DNA of 38,128 nucleotides from a virus, in the IMG/VR virus record IMGVR_UViG_3300045125_000121, positions 1 through 38,128 of that record. The stretch is one strand, 5' to 3'. This document shows, one piece after another, positions 14,959-30,030 of this stretch (the stretch's first letter is position 1; the number at the start of each line of letters is the position of its first letter). A program made the position numbers and the translations under genes. The notes under the pieces are model-generated. The model was not told the origin of the DNA. It did no database searches and saw only the letters and a program-made list of their open reading frames with translations.

Positions 14959-15659
14959 TTAGGCGTCCGCGTCCCACAGGCCGGGTCCGAATAGTCGCTC
15001 CCATTGCGTTGCCGCAAACCGGAGGACGTTAATACGCTCTCTGTCGCTGTCCACGTTATGCGTGCGCAGGCTCCACGATGGCGTTGCCGCGTTTTGGCTG
15101 CGTTCAAGTTCGACGGTGAAGAAACCAGCGGCGCTGGATGGCCTGGGCGAGCGGCAGTGGCGCAGAAAACAAAACGTAAAGCTCTTTGGCGACGTGGGGT
15201 GACCCGAGCAGCTGTAATGGGTTTGGGCGCCCATCTGCTCTAACATGAGAACAAAATAGTTCACACCCCTATCGAGGTGCTCGCTGTAGACGCCGCCGGC
15301 GATGTTCGTAATAGGGTGAGTTTTTTAGCGCGGTCCCATGGGTTCAGTTTTTTCTTAGTAATATTCGGCATTGGTTGGCCAGAAGTATGCAGAGTGTTTT
15401 TAAACCAGTTGCGCCACGACTTTTTCTTCAGCTCGGCCAGTTCGTCTTCGCGCTCCTTCAACTTGATCTGGAGCTTGCGGTATAGCTCCTGCCAGTGGCT
15501 GATCACGACGCGCAGGTCAAGCCCGTAAAGCGGGTCGCCTTTGGGCAGCTCCGGAATGAGCCACGCCGGAGAATAACTGGGGTGCTTCTGTAGTTCTTTG
15601 GTGTTTTTAACGCTTGTTACGTGTGTGAACACGAGGGCGTCATGTTTTTTAACTTTCAT
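14959..15659 (-). CDS. Conserved phage protein with a CSGHP motif
   Basis: Starts MKVKKHDALVFTHVTSVKNT at 15659, its AGGAG held in a hairpin loop. The N-terminal ~95 residues contain WLIPELPKGDPLYGLDLRVV and a charged coiled coil (LQIKLKEREDELAELKKKS). Then NITKKKLNPWDRAKKLT, a frameshift, and ITNIAGGVYSEHLDRGVNYF, VLMLEQMGAQTHYSCSGHP. The C-terminus is INVLRFAATQWERLFGPGLW. The NYFV..LE..GA.THYSCSGHP part belongs to a family I know as hypothetical in phages. The two halves could be separate genes, but they are in one frame up to about 15320. Confidence 0.65.
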
Positions 15660-15676
15660 GTAAACTCCTGTTTACA
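15659..15676 (-). promoter_or_regulatory. Hairpin presenting the Shine-Dalgarno in its loop
   Basis: Minus-strand RNA reads TGTAAACAGGAGTTTACATG: a 7-bp stem TGTAAAC/GTTTACA with loop AGGA. The ATG of the following gene begins on the last stem base. The ribosome-binding site is thus in a hairpin loop and could be opened or closed by the structured RNA just upstream. Confidence 0.65.
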
Positions 15677-15680
15677 AAAT

Positions 15681-15881
15681 CTCGGTAGCTGTGCTAAAGT
15701 ACCGAGCAGTTGCAAGCTCCCGTCGTCCGAGTCGCACGGACACGTCATGGGGTATGAACCCATAACGACACTGGCACGGGAGGACCAGTTCGCTTCCTGC
15801 GTGGTGAGCGCAGCACTTGCAACGAACGAGTGAGCCCGGCTTTACTGGCTAAGAGGCGGGCCGGGCGCGCACTGAGAATTG
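15681..15881 (-). ncRNA. Structured RNA leader: closed multibranch domain with pseudoknot
   Basis: Between the stop at 15882 and the gene starting at 15659 every segment can pair. Core domain: outer stem GTTGCAAG (15709-15716) with CTTGCAAC (15816-15823). Inside it are hairpins at 15725-15741 (5 bp), 15743-15767 (9 bp), 15770-15789 (5 bp) and 15797-15813 (5 bp). CTCCCGT (15717-15723) is complementary to ACGGGAG (15776-15782) in the loop of the third hairpin, giving a 7-bp pseudoknot that abuts the outer stem. Flanking hairpins lie at 15681-15706 (7 bp) and 15834-15866 (7 bp). A C/A mismatch on the plus strand (15746/15764) becomes a G-U pair on the minus strand, which favours transcription with the surrounding genes. 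Not a tRNA or tmRNA that I can fold. Confidence 0.6.
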
Positions 15882-16528
15882 TCAGAGAACGAACGTGCCG
15901 TCGTTCTTGATAATGTTTCGCATGATCGCAATCAAGCGGTCGTCTTCGTTGGGGTATTTGTCAGACCATTTGCGTGCTTGCTTGCTTGTTCCGCGTCCTG
16001 ACCGGGAACGCGCCGCAGTTGTCCTCGAACGCGGCCTCAATCAGCGCGAGCTGGTCCAGCGAGAAGAACCGCGCGAGGCCGTTTGCGAAATTTCTATTCT
16101 TGAGGTGGTCCTCAAAATTCCAGGTCTCGTGGTCAGGGAGTCTTTGACCGTGGTCTGGTTGTTGTAGAGCGTGCAGCTCATAAACATGGCGCCGAGCGCG
16201 CAGCAGTCGCAGGACTGGATCTTCTCGTTCAGGAACGGCTCCCGAATTGACGCCAGCTATTGTCCGCGAACGGGTGTGCTTTAGGCATGTCGGGGTCTGA
16301 CGGGAATCCGATATTAGGCTCAACCCAAGTGCCCTCCCGTAGGCACGTACCGCTTGGCGCTTGATCTGGGCGATCACGTCGTGGGCAATCAGCACGCGCT
16401 TTTCGGCGGCCGGCGCAGTTGTTAAACAGTTTGTTGCGACGCGTGATCTCGGCTTTGACCTTGGCTGCCTTTTTAGCCGCGGCATCGAGCTTTTTTGTTG
16501 TCTTTTTTAGCAGTCGCTTTGTCGTCAT
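15882..16528 (-). CDS. Conserved phage protein with CDCCALG motif
   Basis: Starts MTTKRLLKKTTKKLDAAAKK at 16528 (Lys/Ala-rich helix), then EKRVLIAHDVIAQIKRQAVR, FLNEKIQSCDCCALGAMFMS, a hydrophilic segment NGLARFFSLDQLALIEAAFE, and the end WSDKYPNEDDRLIAIMRNII then KNDGTFVL. The order EKRVLIA.DVIAQI, C.CCALG.MF, FS..QLALIE.AFE, YPNdeDRLIAIM is a family I recognise from many phages as hypothetical. The Cys cluster may bind metal. About 215 residues with three or four frameshifts. Confidence 0.78.
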
Positions 16529-16929
16529 CGTCAAAATCCTTGTATGTGTCCATTCCGTTGAGCCACACAGCGAGGTCGAACCCCAGCCCGACACGCGGAA
16601 AAGTGATTCCGCGGCCCCACTCGTAGGTGTAATCAGGCGAGCTCTGTGCGGCCGTCAAGGCTGAAGCCCCAGGACCGCACGTCGCGGTCTTTGCCCAGCC
16701 TACGAACAGAATCCCTGGCACGTACCACGTGATGCTCCTCCATCGGCGCACCAGGGGCCTGACAGCTGCTTGTTCTTGGGCGCTGGCGGGAGCGCGGCCA
16801 CGTGCGCCGTCAAAGCTGTTCAGCGAGGGTGCGCAAAAGCCAAGATTTCGCAGGCCGCCGACTTCTGCCTTGTCGAAGGACACGCCACTCGGCCCGCAGC
16901 TTCGAGATCGCAGCTTTCCATACCGCCAT
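16473..16929 (-). CDS. Unknown protein, about 150 residues
   Basis: Starts MAVWKAAISKLRAEWRV at 16929 with AAGAAG upstream. After a frame shift it reads FDKAEVGGLRNLGFCAPSLN and, further on, SITWYVPGILFVGWAKTATC, SSPDYTYEWGRGITFPRVGL and FDLAVWLNGMDTYKDFDDDD. The Lys/Asp-rich C-terminus overlaps the next gene's start by ~55 bases, so the stop may be displaced. No family recognised. The 120 bases upstream (16930-17055) show only a weak open frame. Confidence 0.52.
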
Positions 16930-17055
16930 GAGTTCTTCTTGAATTGATGATGGCCCTTATGCCCTCCTTGTGCAAAGAAGCAGCCGCCAGCGGGCATTGT
17001 AGCCCGCGGCAGCGTGTAAAGGAAACGCCGCTTCATAGCGCGTTCCGCAGCAACA

Positions 17056-18368
17056 CTAGCGCACGATCGAAGATTCAGTGATACCAGCCAATCGGGCGTC
17101 TTGCGCTTGGCCAGCGCGACGGATCGGGTCGATCGCGTCCGGCCCTGTCGCGGTCGTCACGGGCCGTGTCGTAATACACGTCCATCGCGTCCTTGAACTT
17201 GGTGTGATAGTTCTCGGGACGCAGGCCGGCCTTCGACGGCTTAAACATCTCACGGACCTTGTGCACGAACGCAGCGCAGATACGCGCTACGCGGGCACCC
17301 TCACCGATCCGGCCGGAGTCGACCTTCTGGAACGGCGGAATACCCAAACAGGTCTACAACCTCAGCGTTGCTGAAGATTCCGGCAGTCTGTTCAATAGTC
17401 TGCGGGATATTTGTAGCCATGATGGCTCGGTCAAACTGCTGTGGATGTAACCCGGCTTCTCGAACTCCGCGATGTAGCGGCAGATGCCGCCGATAAAATC
17501 GCCAGAAATTGCGATTTGCTGGCCGTACCACGTTGAAAACTCTTTACGGCTCAGCAGGTGCAAGGCGCGCCGCAGCACATCCTCACCGTACCGGTCGTAA
17601 CACTTTTTCGATCGTGTGCACTGCACCGAGCTTCGGCCACTTGTCGTCGTGCGGACCGTTGGGGAATACGAAACCGTAATCCTCCATGATCGTCCGAATC
17701 GTGACGCTTCGCATCCGACAGCTCAGGCGTACGCATGATAATGTCCCACTTGGCATGCGACCGCCGAGTGTAATTACCGTCGTTGTACGCCTGGGCTTCG
17801 TCGCGCACGTCATTAACAACGTGCACGAGCGCGCGGATGTGGGTGCAGCCGAGTTCCTTCAACGCTACTGTACGGTGTACACCATCTGTCAAAGAAACAA
17901 TGATGTCCAGCAGCTTGCCGGTCGGAGACATGATTTTTCGCAGCGTTACAGTCGGCAACGCTAACGATCCTGGTCTGAAATTGTTGGCAATTTCAGCCAC
18001 ATGGTGCCAGTCGACCAGCTTGTGTACGACACCTTCTCGTCCACAGTCGGAAATCAATCGGAATGAGAACACATCCGTTCCGCCGTTTGCCTTGATTCCC
18101 TGTTTGTCGCAGAGCGACTGCAGCTCCTCTTTCAGCTCTTCGATTCGGAACTCTACTTCGTCAAACAACCGGCTTTTTCTTCTAATGTGCCGGTGCTTTC
18201 TCGAAAAGGTCCTTGCCTTGTCGAGCTGAGGTGAAGCGTTTGAAGGTGTAGGGCACCTTCGTCTTTTGGTTTTCACCGTAAACGGCTTTAAGCTGGCAGC
18301 CGTTTCGCCAGTTTCGACGTCATCGGCGACGTCCTCGACATCCGAGCAGCTCGAATTGATAGCGTCCA
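17056..18368 (-). CDS. ParB-like domain protein
   Basis: About 437 residues. Starts MDAINSSCSDVEDVADDVET at 18368 with AAAGGAG seven bases upstream. A basic linker and a coiled coil (VEFRIEELKEELQSLCDKQG) precede a ParB-N-like domain: VHKLVDWHHVAEIANNFRPG, LLDIIVSLTDGVHRTVALKE, then CTHIRALVHVVNDVRDEAQA. DGVHRT matches the DGxHR nucleotide-binding motif of ParB/sulfiredoxin-fold proteins. The C-terminal half is helical (CYDRYGEDVLRRALHLLS, WYGQQIAISGDFIGGICRYI, RICAAFVHKVREMFKPSKAG). Phage ParB-like proteins act as nucleases, regulators or CTPase-type clamps; which applies here is open. Four or more frameshifts. Confidence 0.75.
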
Positions 18369-18386
18369 TTGCTGGACTCCTTTGGG

Positions 18387-18587
18387 TTAGGCAGGATCTT
18401 TGACTAAATCCTGCTCGGTCAGGAGAAAGAACTTCGAAAAGTTCCATCGGCACGTCAAGCATCAAGCCGTCCCACGGCATGTTGGCTGGGTGCACGAGAC
18501 GCACAGAGCACCGCAGATGCGCGGGCGACGGCAACGCCTTGCAGGCGTGTTCGTGGATCATGATGGGGTCAATCGCCAGTATTGCAT
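18387..18587 (-). CDS. Small unknown protein, about 66 residues
   Basis: Starts MQYWRLTP at 18587, then a one-base shift to IMIHEHACKALPSPAHLRCS, VRLVHPANMPWDGLMLDVPM and, after another shift, LLTEQDLVKDPA. The stop is ~20 bases before the ParB-like start. Function unknown. Confidence 0.5.
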
Positions 18588-20059: not shown

Positions 20060-20402
20060 TACAGGCCCTCTTCTTCGAGAAGCCCGGGCCGCGAGCTCGC
20101 GACCAGCGTCTGTGATGCAGGAATTGCGGCTCGTCATCGTCGTCGATTTTGACCGCCAAGTGTCTGTTTAAAACGCCCTGGAGTGTAAGCAGCTCGACCT
20201 GCACCCTACGCACCCAACTAATAATGCGGTTCGTTTCCTCTTCGCTCATGCCCTCGCCGTCCTGGTTTTGGCGAGAATACATCGCGGGATATGTGAGCGC
20301 TGGCGCAAGTTTTTCTATCGTCGGCATATCTTCAGCCCACGCGTTAAATTGCTGAACGGTTTCCCGCATTTCTTCGGCGCAGGCTCTTTGGTCTTCGTTC
20401 AT
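20059..20402 (-). CDS. Unknown helical protein, about 115 residues
   Basis: ATG at 20402 (MNEDQRACAEEMRETVQQFN) overlaps the stop of the previous gene (ATGA). An alternative ATG at 20422 has a better Shine-Dalgarno (GAGGAG). Then WAEDMPTIEKLAPALTYPAM, EEETNRIISWVRRVQVELLT and an acidic VKIDDDDEPQFLHHR. A late frame shift gives the end ASSRPGLLEEEGL, whose TAA overlaps the next ATG. Function unknown. Confidence 0.6.
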
Positions 20403-20790
20403 ACCAGCGAGGGGTCGGACATTCTGTCTCCTCTTTTTCGGCGGCAGCCAATTCCTTTCGAGGCTCTTGCGGCTGCCGTACATCCAGCTCTGGACTTCGA
20501 TCTGCCGGAACCAGTCGCTGATCGACGGGATGCGGCCTTAGGTCTTCCTGGACGTGCTGCTCGCCGATGTAGCGAACCATGACCTCACGCCCGTCAGAGT
20601 TGGTAATCGTGTGGCCGAAGATTTTCTCGGCCATGAAAATACCCTCGCTGTGATGCCGGAGGGCGCGGTGGCGAAAGTCAGCCATATGACTCTTCGATTC
20701 GTCGAACCAGTCGTGAATCGGAAGATAGTCTTCTACCTGTCCGCCCCATTTCTTAACGCTTGATATGGCGTGATGGTATGGATGTGCCAT
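20399..20790 (-). CDS. DUF6915-like conserved phage protein
   Basis: ATG at 20790 with AAAGG six bases upstream. MAHPYHHAISSVKKWGGQVE and DYLPIHDWFDESKSHMADFR, HRALRHHSEGIFMAEKIFG, ITNSDGREVMVRYIGEQHVQ, then after a shift IPSISDWFRQIEVQSWMYG. I know this exact order (SSVKK.GG...DYL.IH.WFDe.K, RHRALRHH..GIF..E..FG, NSDG..V.VRyIGEQHV.EDLG) from phage and planctomycete sequences. Many conserved His residues suggest metal binding. Function unknown. About 130 residues. Confidence 0.8.
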
Positions 20791-20804
20791 TTTTAACCTT
20801 TGAG

Positions 20805-21031
20805 TTACCAGCAAATATCTTCGCTGAGCTGCCAGACGCCGCCAGAATATCCGGTGGGCTGGAACGTGTAGTCCCTTGGCCGCAAACATGCGCCATGACT
20901 TCGTCTTTGTAGATATGACTCGGGCTGAAACACGTACGCGTGTGGCCGAGAGCCGTGGCGCGGTCAATACATTTCATGACGTTGCGAACCTGCTCTTCTA
21001 AAGCAGTCACGTACTCGTCATTTTTAAACAT
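20805..21031 (-). CDS. Small unknown protein, about 75 residues
   Basis: Starts MFKNDEYVTALEEQVRNVMK at 21031, continues CIDRATALGHTRTCFSPSHI and VMAHVCGQGTT, with a late frameshift to FQPTGYSGGVWQLSEDICW and a TAA that precedes the next Shine-Dalgarno. Several Cys and His. No family recognised. Confidence 0.58.
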
Positions 21032-25245: not shown

Positions 25246-28200
25246 TTAGTCGTCGACACTAACGAGCTTACGTTCCTGCTGGAGAGCGTTTCGCAAGAAG
25301 CGGACGATCTGCGGCAAGCACTTCATCACGTTACTGACGAAGACCACATGATTGTCACCATACTGTTGTCTTAAACGCCGTCTGGTGGTGGCCATTAACG
25401 CCAACGGCGAACGCGTACGTGCCAATTTTTAGCCGGTCACGCGTGAACTTACACACGCTGGTAACGTGCTTTTGCGCGGTTTCACCGCCGTAACCAGCGC
25501 CGGCCGGGAAGCCGTCGGCGATTACGAACAGGTACTTCCGCTCGGCGGTATCCTCGGACAAGCGCCTGGCGACATCCTTGATGGCATAGCCGTCGTAGTT
25601 GTTGCAGTGCGCCTCGATATTGCCGAGCTTTGACAGGTCCCTGCCCATGCCGGGGGTGTAGTGCTCATAGATAGTCACGTCATCCCGGTCCATGTTGGCG
25701 GTGTGGCCGTACACGTACAGCCGAACGCCGGCAATCTTTTGCGCGGCTTCGGCAAGCGTGATGCACAGCTCACGGGCCTGATCAATTTTAAGCCCGCCCA
25801 TACTGCCAGACTGGTCGACGAGGATACCGACCGCAACGTCTGGCAACTTGCTGGTCGTCTTTTGCGACCAGATATGCTCGCAATCGTAGCTCAGCTTATG
25901 CAGGCTTCCCTCGTCAAGATCGCCAGAACGCGAGCCGTGCGTTTCAACCGTCCGCTTTCCGGCCTGGAACTGCAGCGCATTTCGGATCCGCTCAACAGCG
26001 CCCTCTGTTCCGGGCACAGATTTGCGCGAACAACGTCGCCGCCGTCACGACCACGATACCGAGAACGAGCGCTTCCTTTTCGCGTAATGACCTTGGGTTT
26101 GCAGTCGTTATGGTCAAGATAGGCTACGTACTCTTCCTCGGCCGCGTGGCGAGCCTCGTCATTGACGTGTCCGATAGACTCGCCAGTGAGCACCTTGGTC
26201 GTCGTTTCAATCTTGTCGCCGAATAAATGACGGTCGACAGGACTGAAATCTTGCTGCGCTTTTTCAACCTTACCGGCCATTTCAGTGCCGATGCTCTCGG
26301 CTTACTGGCGGTCTTTCCCGCGCCCATGAGATTCCGCAGGGCGGTGATCAGGCGTTTTAGCGTTTCAGGGCTAATACCCAGATCTTCTGCGGACTTCTTG
26401 AGCTTATCGGCGTCTTCTTCGAACAAATCCTTGAGCAGGTTCTTCATCGCCGCGTTTACCAGCGTGCGCCATGAAGCTATTGTCCGATTACCGCGTTTGA
26501 CGCCATGGTCGCGTCAATAGCGGTGTCGATGGCTTCGGGAATCGAAGACTCACCACCATTAAACTCGTGCGCTAGCTGCGTTGTGAGCTTGGTGATGAGC
26601 TGCCCCTGATGCAGCGTATAGTTGTCGTAAAAACAATGGCGCTGCGTGGGCCAGGGCGTGATTCGTCAGGACTCATGGCTTCCGAGAGCGCTTTTTGCAG
26701 CGCCGCTTCGTCGACCGCGGAATTCTGCCGCTTTCGAGCTTGCGGCGGCAGAGCTTTTGCCGCGTTGTCGACACGTTCCCGGAAACTATTGACCATGAGC
26801 TTTAACTGACTCCATGGCGGCAACGCCCTGCGCCGTCGCCGATGCGCCGCCATACCGAGATTCCGAGATGCGTTTTTCAGCTTCGCGGATCTTGGCCAGC
26901 GTTTCGTCGGCTTTTGTGACGGCACTCCCGACTCGCTCGCCCATCTTTTTGATGCATGCTCAACCGTGCGGTCTTTTAAGTTCCGCGCGATTCTTTTTCA
27001 CCATGGCGCTCGCTTTTTCGCTAACCGCCTTGGCAACTCCATCAATCTTCTTAAGCTGCTCTTCTCCACCCGGACCGGTGAAAGCCTCGTGCGCTGCCAG
27101 CTGCCGCATAAACTCGTCGACAGTTTTATCGCCGCCGTTCTTGAGCGCGTCGATACCCTGCGGCCGAGACGATGTGGCGTACGAAAGCTGGCTTTTCGCC
27201 ATGTAAGCCTTCGAGGCCGCGTCGGTTGGCTTGCCTTCTTCAAACAGCTTTTCAGCCGCTTCAAGCTCTTCAGCCACTCTCGACGTGCTGGTCAGCTGAT
27301 CTGAGACAGTTGCGCTTGATATCATTGAGCAGGCCGGCGTCGCCCGAAGACGCGTCGTCCGTTCTTTGCTCACTTGCACGCGACGTGTTCTCTGCTGCGC
27401 CCATCGCTCCGGCAATGCTCTCGAGAAATTCCCGCATCGCCTCGGCGTCTTCTCCGGAACCGCCCCCTGCTCTTTTTGGGCCTGCGCCATCATCTCCGCC
27501 AGCGCAGCTTTCCATGGCACCGGCGGTAGCCACCCGTCGCCGCATTCTCACTTCTCTCAGCAGCGCGCGAATCTCTTCTACCAGTCTCGGCACACGTCGA
27601 GCAGGTTGGTCCGGTTCAACCTCGGCGCCCAGGTGTTTGGACGCCAGCTCGTCGATTTCCTTGGGAAGGCCGGCGGACTCTCGTCTGCAAGCATGTTGTA
27701 ACCAAGCATTCCGACAATCGTCTCGACGGACTGCTCGGCCTTCCAAGGTTCTCTCGCACAGCCGCGCAACTTCTGGCATGACGAATAAAGTACGGCGCGA
27801 AACCGCCCCAATTCGACACGACGTTTCGCCGCGCTAACCGAGTCAGCATGCTCTTGGCGAGCAGGCCGGCCAGATAGTCGTCTGCTGTTTCACGGCCAAA
27901 CGCCGCCGGGTCGATACCCTTGAGGCTGTCTTTGTTGACAAACCGCTTCGGCCGCTCGGAACGCGGCCGCGTGCATGCCGGTCGCATTAATACGCCGAAT
28001 CGCTTCGGGGAAGACGTCCTGCGCGATTTGCACCGCAACAGCACGAAACCCGTCAGCGCGTCGACAACGGCGTCCTCCGCCTCAGTCGAGTCGGAAGCCA
28101 GAGGCTCGTCCAGGGAGACGAACACAATCCGCTGCTTGTCCTCGGTCAGAGAAGCTGGCCACGCCATTTGAGTCGCTACCGCCGCTGGAACTGGACGGCA

Positions 28201-28319: not shown

Positions 28320-28692
28320 AGCGTCGTGTCGAGCGGTAAACGTCGAACGAAACTGACTCGACGGCGAGAATAGTCAGCCTGCCGGGTGCAACGAAACTTA
28401 CCGCGGCGATACCAGTCGCGATCCGAGTCGTCAAACTCGTCGTAGTAACCGTAGCCGCTGTATCCGCTGTAGCCGTAGCCGCCGTAATCATCGCGGCGGA
28501 CTTCGTCGTGTGGTCGTGTAGCGGGTGTTAAACCCGATGACTATGCGATCTTTTCGTCGTCGTCGTTATCTCGACCGTCCGCGTAATACCACTTCTTCTT
28601 CTCAGATTTCGCGGACGCCCGAAGACTTCTATCAGTCTCCGGTTTTCGTCTCAGTTCGTAATCTTCCAGAGTGCTTTCCACTCTTTAGCCAT
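28316..28692 (-). CDS. Gly/Tyr/Asp-rich small protein between MoxR and VWA genes
   Basis: About 124 residues. The start MAKEWKSTLEDYELRRKPET at 28692 overlaps the MoxR stop by eight bases. Then ASAKSEKKKWYYADGRDNDD and, after one shift, RDDYGGYGYSGYSGYGYYDE and FDDSDRDWYRRGKFRC, ending RRLPLDTTL at a TGA that overlaps the VWA start. The central GYGYSGYSGYGYY run is low-complexity with aromatic/Gly spacing seen in disordered, self-associating segments. The conserved position between two machine subunits suggests an adaptor or substrate-binding role (inference). Confidence 0.65.
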
Positions 28693-30030
28693 TAATTAGG
28701 CCTTTTGGCCGCGGCAGCCGAGCGGCCGCGATCAGGTCACCGAACTTGCCCTGAATAATGCTCTGCACCTGACGCGCTCGGAATCCCCGTCGCCGTCAGC
28801 GAGGAATGATTGGTAGATCGTAAACTGTAAGGTATCAACACCGCCGAGCACAAAGTCGTGCGCAGCCCAGCAGCTGGCGAGTCGACAGGCTCTCGGTCAG
28901 CGTGGCCGAAAGGCCGGTAGCGTCCTGCCGGATCTTGTTCGCCATCTGGACCAGACGGCCGGCGATCGTCCTTCGTCACGCCGGTACGGTTCACCAGCAG
29001 CTCGACTTCGTCCGCTTCCGCCGAGATACGTCAGCTCGACGGCGCGAGGGAAGCGGTCGCGGATCGCGCGGTCGAGCGCCGAGGTGCCGGTGTAACCAGC
29101 GCCCTCGTTCATCGACGCAAAGAACACGGTTCCGGGACCGACGATGATCTTGTTGCCCTCTCTCCTCAAGATAGGTGAAGCGGCGGGCGTCGAGGATCGG
29201 CATCAGCGTGTTAAGCAGGTTCGGATTGGCACGATTGAGCTCGTCGAGCAGAATCACGTGATTGCCAGCCGACGACGGCGCGGACGAACTGGCTCTCCTG
29301 CCAGTACACCGTACCCTCGCGGGCCGACTTGTAACCGGAACCAGTCGCGGGCCTCGCGGAGATTGGCGCAGTCCATGATCAGCAGCGGCCGGCCATGACG
29401 GGCGGCAGCGAACTGAATCGCAAGCTCGGTCTTGCCGCAGCCGTGTGGGCCGATCAGGTTAACGTTCTGCGGCACTTCTTGCTCGAAGCCTCCAGGATAC
29501 CGAACAGTCGCTCGACCTGATCGTTGATGATGTAGGTCGCATCGGGCCGCGGATAGAACACGCCGTGCTCTTCGTCCTTGGCGCGCTCGCTCTCTTCGCT
29601 GACGACACCCAGCGTCGGCTTGTCACGCCGGCCATCCGGGCGAGGCCGTAGTCGCCGTCGGCTGCCACGGGCTGGCCGAACGACATCTTGGCGGCCTTCT
29701 CGGCCGCGGCTTCCGCCGCCGGGATCGCCGTTGCACAACCCGGCCGCACGTCAGCTGGACCGTCGCGCGATCGAGGTTAACGGTGCGCTTGTTCAGGTTG
29801 ATAGCCGAGAATCGCCCGGCCAGCAATATCGCCGCGGCGGTCGATGACGCCAGCAGAGCTCTTCGAGGAGCTCTCACAAGCTCGGCACGCTGACGGTCCC
29901 ACATCGGACCAGTCAGGGTATCGACGAAGATACCGAGCGTGTACTGAACCGCGATTTCGTCGTTAAACTCGTCGCCCAACGGAAGCGAGCCGTTTTCGAC
30001 AACGTACTCCTTGAGCTTCTTGGCGGTCAT
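28685..30030 (-). CDS. MoxR-type AAA+ ATPase (CobS-like)
   Basis: About 448 residues, start MTAKKLKEYVVENGSLPLGD at 30030. After an N-terminal extension (FNDEIAVQYTLGIFVDTLTG) and FYPRPDATYIINDQVERLFG comes the AAA+ core: NLIGPHGCGKTELAIQFAAA (Walker A), LLIMDCANLREARDWFGYKS, HVILLDELNRANPNLLNTLM (Walker B), RRFTYLEERGNKIIVGPGTV, FFASMNEGAGYTGTSALDRA (sensor 1) and IRDRFPRAVEL (arginine finger region). The C-terminus is VQSIIQGKFGDLIAAARLPR. The sequence matches a conserved phage MoxR/CobS family. It would hydrolyse ATP to remodel a partner selected by the VWA protein. About five frameshifts. Confidence 0.87.

Follow-up and report, generated by a model that had tools for sequence, protein, structure and literature searches.

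A group of uncultured large phages almost certainly carries a previously unannotated, conserved structured RNA of about 157 nt, the 3′ domain of which very probably resembles an initiator tRNA. It was found in the IMG/VR virus record IMGVR_UViG_3300045125_000121, whose 38,128 bases were analyzed as a whole (hereafter the window). The RNA lies on the minus strand, with its 5′ end at 15873 and its 3′ end at 15717, limits that come from covariance-model homologues and from the refolding of a four-lineage alignment (A5). The genes that flank it are on the same strand, and several of them are disrupted by frame changes. A DUF6915 protein encoded at 20344-20967 led to 80 related loci, several of them on contigs of about 200 kb, and the source record is therefore a fragment belonging to a group of large phages. 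Many genes of this record are split over frames, in 15261-18561 and elsewhere (one of them, at 15961-17036, has an intact relative in locus L141), which suggests uncorrected indels in the assembly. In another part of the window (25355-26017 and 28656-29570, minus strand), a CobT/VWA-like protein adjoins a conserved ATPase-like protein that, by context only, would be CobS-like; this pair is common to related large phages.

Within the related loci, BLAST matched the region to L012 and L013, with an identity of about 70%. A covariance model built from the window and these two loci (R1) then detected, under a rough calibration, a fourth lineage (the L131/L132/L133 group), with copies in the related records G074, G075 and G076 (112 bits, E ~1e-30). 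The RNA is thus known from four independent lineages (window, L012, L013 and L131/L132/L133), all metagenomic, and the other related records that were searched, several of about 200 kb, are devoid of it. Two weak candidates were rejected: one in L150 (16.3 bits) falls within a 619-aa ORF, on its antisense strand, and one in L147 (16.7 bits) lacks most helices. Searches of Rfam at gathering and relaxed thresholds returned no relevant family for the RNA, and BLAST gave no match either, whether with three versions of the RNA in phage records or with the window version in plasmids. Patterns drawn from the conserved 5′ domain found, apart from the known copies, only chance matches in viral contigs and 84,980 prokaryote genomes.

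The fold of the RNA is supported by extensive covariation. In the three-lineage alignment, 96.7% of the cells of 40 pairs are standard and 16 pairs show two-sided changes (0 of 500 shuffles). In the four-lineage alignment, 97.5% of cells are paired and 18 of the 40 pairs change on both sides while staying paired (again 0 of 500 shuffles); sliding one partner by one to three columns lowers the pairing below 40%. RNAalifold, applied to the structure-blind MAFFT alignment A5 of the four lineages, arrived at an identical set of six helices, with 18 pairs covarying, and added an AGUG/CACU extension to the first hairpin (P0) and an invariant U.G pair to the last one (P5). The differences in loop length are not multiples of three, which argues against a coding origin.

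An earlier note, made from the window sequence by itself, had described on this strand a compact functional RNA in which an 8-bp outer stem (GTTGCAAG 15709-15716 / CTTGCAAC 15816-15823) enclosed four hairpins (15725-15741, 15743-15767, 15770-15789 and 15797-15813) and stacked on a 7-bp pseudoknot (CTCCCGT 15717-15723, complementary to ACGGGAG 15776-15782). All these pairings are literally present in the window. Single-sequence folding of the minus strand gave them modest support (z = -2.24, 8 of 200 shuffles being equally stable), z was -2.2 on both strands, and, with flanks included, the predicted minimum fold prefers this outer stem. Since such folding is only moderately informative, relatives were needed to tell real from accidental pairs. 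They showed that the outer stem and the ACTGG/CCAGT hairpin are peculiar to the window: in the three-sequence alignment A2, 66.7% and 73.3% of their pairs are kept, respectively, and neither has any two-sided change. Because these two elements are not conserved, the presumed pseudoknot is an ordinary nested 7-bp helix (P3) that closes two hairpins, P4 and P5. The covariation that had been predicted was found for CTCCCGT/ACGGGAG and for the 9-bp hairpin, but not for the outer stem; the GTCCG/CGGAC and CTGCG/CGCAG hairpins also covary in homologues. Exact loop and pseudoknot patterns taken from the earlier structure gave no match. The choice of the minus strand was correct, since, read from the plus strand, the conserved helices would have A/C mismatches in place of their G-U pairs, and the idea of a compact, conserved and functional structured phage RNA, for which the advised Rfam search gave no family, is supported as well. 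Overall, the observation is partly confirmed and its interpretation partly supported.

The boundaries had to be revised, the conserved RNA extending about 50 nt further in the 5′ direction, to 15873, with the addition of hairpin P0 and helix P1. P0 (15834..15866, minus strand) pairs GCCCGGC 15860-15866 with GCCGGGC 15834-15840; it is 100% paired, with two-sided changes at three of its seven pairs. Its outer extension (AGUG 15870..15873 with CACU 15829-15832, minus strand) is kept in three of the four lineages and broken in L012, and its loop (15841-15859) carries the conserved motif GCCUCUU..CC[AG]GUAAA. P1 (15788..15827, minus strand) pairs GUUCGUU 15821-15827 with AGCGAAC 15788-15794 and is also 100% paired (two-sided changes at two of seven pairs). 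On top of it stands P2 (15797..15813, minus strand; CUGCG 15809-15813 / CGCAG 15797-15801), a hairpin already in the earlier note, with 92% of its cells paired and one pair changed on both sides. Together, P0 and P1/P2 form a 5′ domain of about 85-90 nt with highly conserved loops (GCCUCUU..CC[AG]GUAAAGC, UCACU and GUGCUG), which may bind a protein or a target RNA. A pseudoknot of CCA with UGG, joining the P0 loop to the UGGU linker, was considered and dropped since it fails in L132. A three-pair contact of UYG at the P0/P1 junction with CRA in the P5 loop, which shows one two-sided change, is possible.

The 3′ domain (15717..15782, minus strand, 66 nt) is closed by P3 and has the layout of a tRNA that lacks its D-arm. 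P3 (CUCCCGU 15776-15782 / ACGGGAG 15717-15723, minus strand) resembles an acceptor stem of 7 bp, and four of its seven pairs change on both sides; in L132 the seventh pair is a G.G mismatch next to six regular pairs. The place of the D-arm, which is absent, is taken by a linker (15768..15775, minus strand; GCCAGUGU, 8 nt, with GUG conserved in alignments A4 and A5) that measures 8-9 nt across lineages; a contact of this linker with the P5 loop, its UG facing the GC of the T-loop, is possible. P4 (15743..15767, minus strand; CGUUAUGGG / CCCAUGACG) is a 9-bp hairpin resembling an anticodon arm, with two-sided changes at five of nine pairs. Its loop reads UUCAUAC in the window (15752-15758), UUCAUGC in both L012 and L013, and CUCAUAA in L132 (consensus YUCAURN), so that a 7-nt loop with U33, a CAU anticodon and a purine at position 37 is found in all four lineages; CUCAUAA is exactly the anticodon loop of E. 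coli tRNA-fMet. The pairs beside this loop are GGG/CCC in the window, GGG/UCC in L132 and AGG/CCU in L012 and L013. Finally, P5 (15724..15742, minus strand; GUCCG / CGGAC plus the U.G pair 15742-15724, loop UGCGACU 15730-15736) resembles a T arm, with two-sided changes at three of five pairs. Since the U.G pair is present in all four lineages, P5 abuts both P3 and P4 without gap, and the acceptor-like stem stacks directly on it. The T-loop follows [UC]GC[AG]A, with C56, R57 and A58 retained, G at position 55 in every lineage and C at position 54 in L132. The domain has neither an encoded CCA nor a variable loop.

The covariance models R1 and R2 were built from the phage RNAs only and could therefore serve as a test against tRNA genes. 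R2 was run unfiltered over ten stretches of E. coli MG1655 that hold 42 annotated tRNA genes, and under the rough calibration it ranked the four initiator tRNA-fMet genes first (metY with 17.5 bits and E 2.3e-4; metZ/W/V with 15.9 bits and E 7.2e-4). The match is ungapped over 43 nt (model positions 104-146), from the anticodon arm through the T arm. The next-best match reached 9.7 bits, and tRNA-Lys, which followed the initiators among tRNAs aligned in this register, had 8.6; the elongator tRNA-Met genes metT and metU gave no R2 match at E values up to 10. R1, which does not include the lineage with the CUCAUAA loop, returned the same top four (14.2 and 12.6 bits), the next match having 8.0. 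In one common register, ungapped identity to tRNA-fMet is 23, 23, 21 and 25 of 43 in the four lineages, values reached by 78, 29, 515 and 7 of 20,000 shuffles. By summed score, the initiator comes first of 27 tRNAs (92; the next has 78 and elongator Met 69); L013 taken alone is slightly nearer to proM than to fMet (23 vs 21). In the phage LukeCage, the top R2 match is a tRNA-Met(CAU) gene.

The earlier note had also stated that the element does not fit a tRNA cloverleaf. This holds for a complete cloverleaf, standard (bacterial) ARAGORN and the Rfam tRNA model making no tRNA call and only low-threshold or mitochondrial modes responding, but it does not hold for the 3′ 66 nt, which fit a D-armless tRNA-Met. 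ARAGORN -mt, the mitochondrial mode that also accepts tRNAs with missing arms such as the D-arm, called tRNA-Met(CAU) on the 3′ domain of three of the four lineages (window, at 15782-15716, L012 and L132) and made no call in L013. Run over 2,000 dinucleotide shuffles, it never called CAU, its calls of all kinds on that strand numbering 35. ARAGORN detected no tmRNA in the RNA. The stretch of tRNA-fMet aligned with P4 runs from the 3′ strand of the D-stem across the anticodon arm into the beginning of the variable loop, so the 9 bp of P4 could stand in for the stack of D-stem and anticodon stem of a normal tRNA. A likeness of P0 to the fMet D-arm (GCAGCCU) was abandoned because neither model matches tRNA D-arms with P0.

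These results bear on two other readings. A riboswitch or other ligand-binding RNA, in which the CAU loop and the T-like loop would be coincidental, would agree with the size, the compact array of hairpins and the strongly conserved loop nucleotides of P0 and P1/P2. It is nevertheless quite improbable, since two separately built models place four initiator tRNAs above all other tRNAs and the background, the calls of ARAGORN -mt on the RNA differ from those on shuffles, and the downstream genes are variable. Likewise, an initiator-like tRNA gene that was acquired from a host and is now decaying and functionless would account for the likeness of the 3′ half to fMet and for the patchy presence of the RNA, but compensatory changes preserve almost all pairs across divergent lineages whereas a pseudogene would lose them, which makes this reading hardly credible. 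On the basis of four sequences, the likeness to fMet could either stem from an initiator tRNA once captured or have arisen by convergence.

In the lineages compared, the RNA occupies one orthologous locus, bordered upstream by relatives of a 474-aa gene and downstream by a gene that carries a SEC-C-like motif (recognized by eye); the genes between these landmarks vary by lineage. A family search with the proteins adjoining the RNA gave no informative match. In the window, the next gene (15261..15659, minus strand, 132 codons in frame as given, without family match) has its SD inside a small hairpin, TGTAAACAGGAGTTTACATG; its similarity to genes that follow the RNA elsewhere is limited to an 18-aa stretch, which matches the second downstream gene of L141. 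The start codons at 15657-15677 (minus strand) of the window and at the equivalent place in L131/L132 share TGTAAACAGGAnTTTACA(A)TG, an SD enclosed in a small palindromic hairpin, although the proteins are unrelated.

The earlier note had placed the RNA in a phage leader, and it could be a cis-acting tRNA-like leader located upstream of an RBS and, like the yjdF riboswitch, increasing or switching the translation of the gene that follows. The distance from its end to the start codon is about 60-70 nt in the window and in the L131 group, with the SD in a small conserved hairpin, and tRNA-like elements acting in cis raised translation 2- to 6.3-fold (PMC9142559). However, no gene follows the RNA for about 250 nt in L013, the next ORF in L012 has 53 aa and no clear SD, and Rfam returned no yjdF match. 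The first genes after the RNA are unrelated among lineages (L012 and L013 share a larger gene further on), so that the four lineages have in common the RNA and its locus, but not the gene that comes after it; a constant position before one class of genes was not seen in the lineages compared. Furthermore, at the corresponding sites of L005, L008, L010 and L014, the terminator described below and a conserved downstream element are only about 70-80 bases apart, without the RNA between them. The differing downstream genes and these RNA-less orthologous sites make a leader or riboswitch of a given gene unlikely and favor an independent RNA, which we consider likely to act in trans and not in cis.

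Alternatively, the element could be a 3′ UTR or intergenic RNA that is processed and serves only to stabilize transcripts or to mark an RNase P/Z site, its tRNA-like domain being the cleavage signal. Shapes of this kind are substrates of RNase P/Z, and the RNA begins, in both the window and the L131 group, about 10 nt past the stop codon of a related upstream gene. In L012 and L013, however, a strong intrinsic terminator separates the upstream gene from the RNA, and neither the invariant CAU loop nor the long conserved 5′ domain would be needed for such a signal, so that processing is an improbable explanation.

This terminator hairpin (GTAGGGGCGGG..CCCGCCCCTAC; L013:17800-17829) is a near-identical landmark after the upstream gene at the matching places of L012, L005, L008, L010 and L014. 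It is followed, in six related phages with or without the initiator-tRNA-like RNA, by a second conserved noncoding element (L013:18062-18262, L012:18808-19030, L005:18770-18990, L008:18365-18580, L010:17852-18070 and L014:8300-8520). The latter comprises CCCCCGATCAT, then a hairpin with two covarying pairs, then TAGGTCCrCATAAAnCGGACAAAATTTG and finally TTTACCCC; RNAalifold predicted 10 pairs for it, of which two covary, and its L013 copy has no Rfam match.

The explanation toward which we lean is that of an independently acting phage-encoded RNA of about 157 nt, whose 3′ initiator-tRNA-like domain serves in trans as a mimic or decoy. A 5′ part made of the P0 and P1/P2 hairpins would be joined to a 3′ part that is shaped like a D-armless initiator tRNA and presents CAU. 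The RNA would be transcribed and released, and its 3′ domain might be bound by a factor that handles fMet-tRNA (the 30S P site/IF2, methionyl-tRNA synthetase or formyltransferase) or by a host nuclease attacking initiator tRNA. It could then damp or redirect host initiation, or soak up a host anti-phage tRNA nuclease; a specific role as decoy or inhibitor is the more tentative part of this proposal. tRNAs are established targets of antiphage immunity (for example PMC12851939).

Comparison with known systems shows both likenesses and differences. Like E. coli tRNA-fMet (metZWV/metY), the phage RNA has a CAU loop with U33 and purine 37, G-C rich pairs beside this loop (three G-C in the window), a T-arm-like hairpin at identical spacing over the ungapped 43 nt and a 7-bp acceptor-like stem. 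Unlike it, it has an 8-nt linker instead of a D-arm, a 9-bp anticodon-like arm, no variable loop, G at position 55 of the T-loop, no encoded CCA and an additional 5′ domain. The yjdF riboswitch (PMC9142559) is also a non-tRNA RNA with a tRNA-like shape located upstream of genes, but it resembles tRNA-Lys whereas the phage RNA resembles initiator tRNA, has another secondary structure, is without Rfam match and has no constant regulated gene. With the tRNA-like structures of plant RNA viruses and D-armless mitochondrial tRNAs, it shares a tRNA shape devoid of some cloverleaf arms, and the mitochondrial mode of ARAGORN recognizes its 3′ domain; in contrast to them, it belongs to a large DNA phage, carries an attached 5′ domain and is not located at a genome 3′ end. 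Other structured phage or bacterial RNAs, such as GOLLD and ROOL (PMC12286853), are likewise noncoding RNAs supported by covariation, some of them phage-borne, but they are much larger and form described families of their own, whereas the phage RNA has no Rfam match.

Taken together, the RNA could represent a new family of phage RNAs that carry a minimal initiator-tRNA mimic and employ it in trans, whether to block translation initiation in the infected cell, to protect it or to take it over, although we put this forward with reserve. RNA viruses and one riboswitch are familiar examples of tRNA mimicry, and bacteria counter phages by cleaving tRNAs. We found no described case of a DNA-phage RNA that imitates initiator tRNA, and this would be, to our knowledge, the first such mimic. 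If its function is real, it would offer a compact and testable handle on the dealings of large phages with host initiation or with tRNA-targeting immunity, as well as a natural minimal design of what the initiation machinery recognizes.
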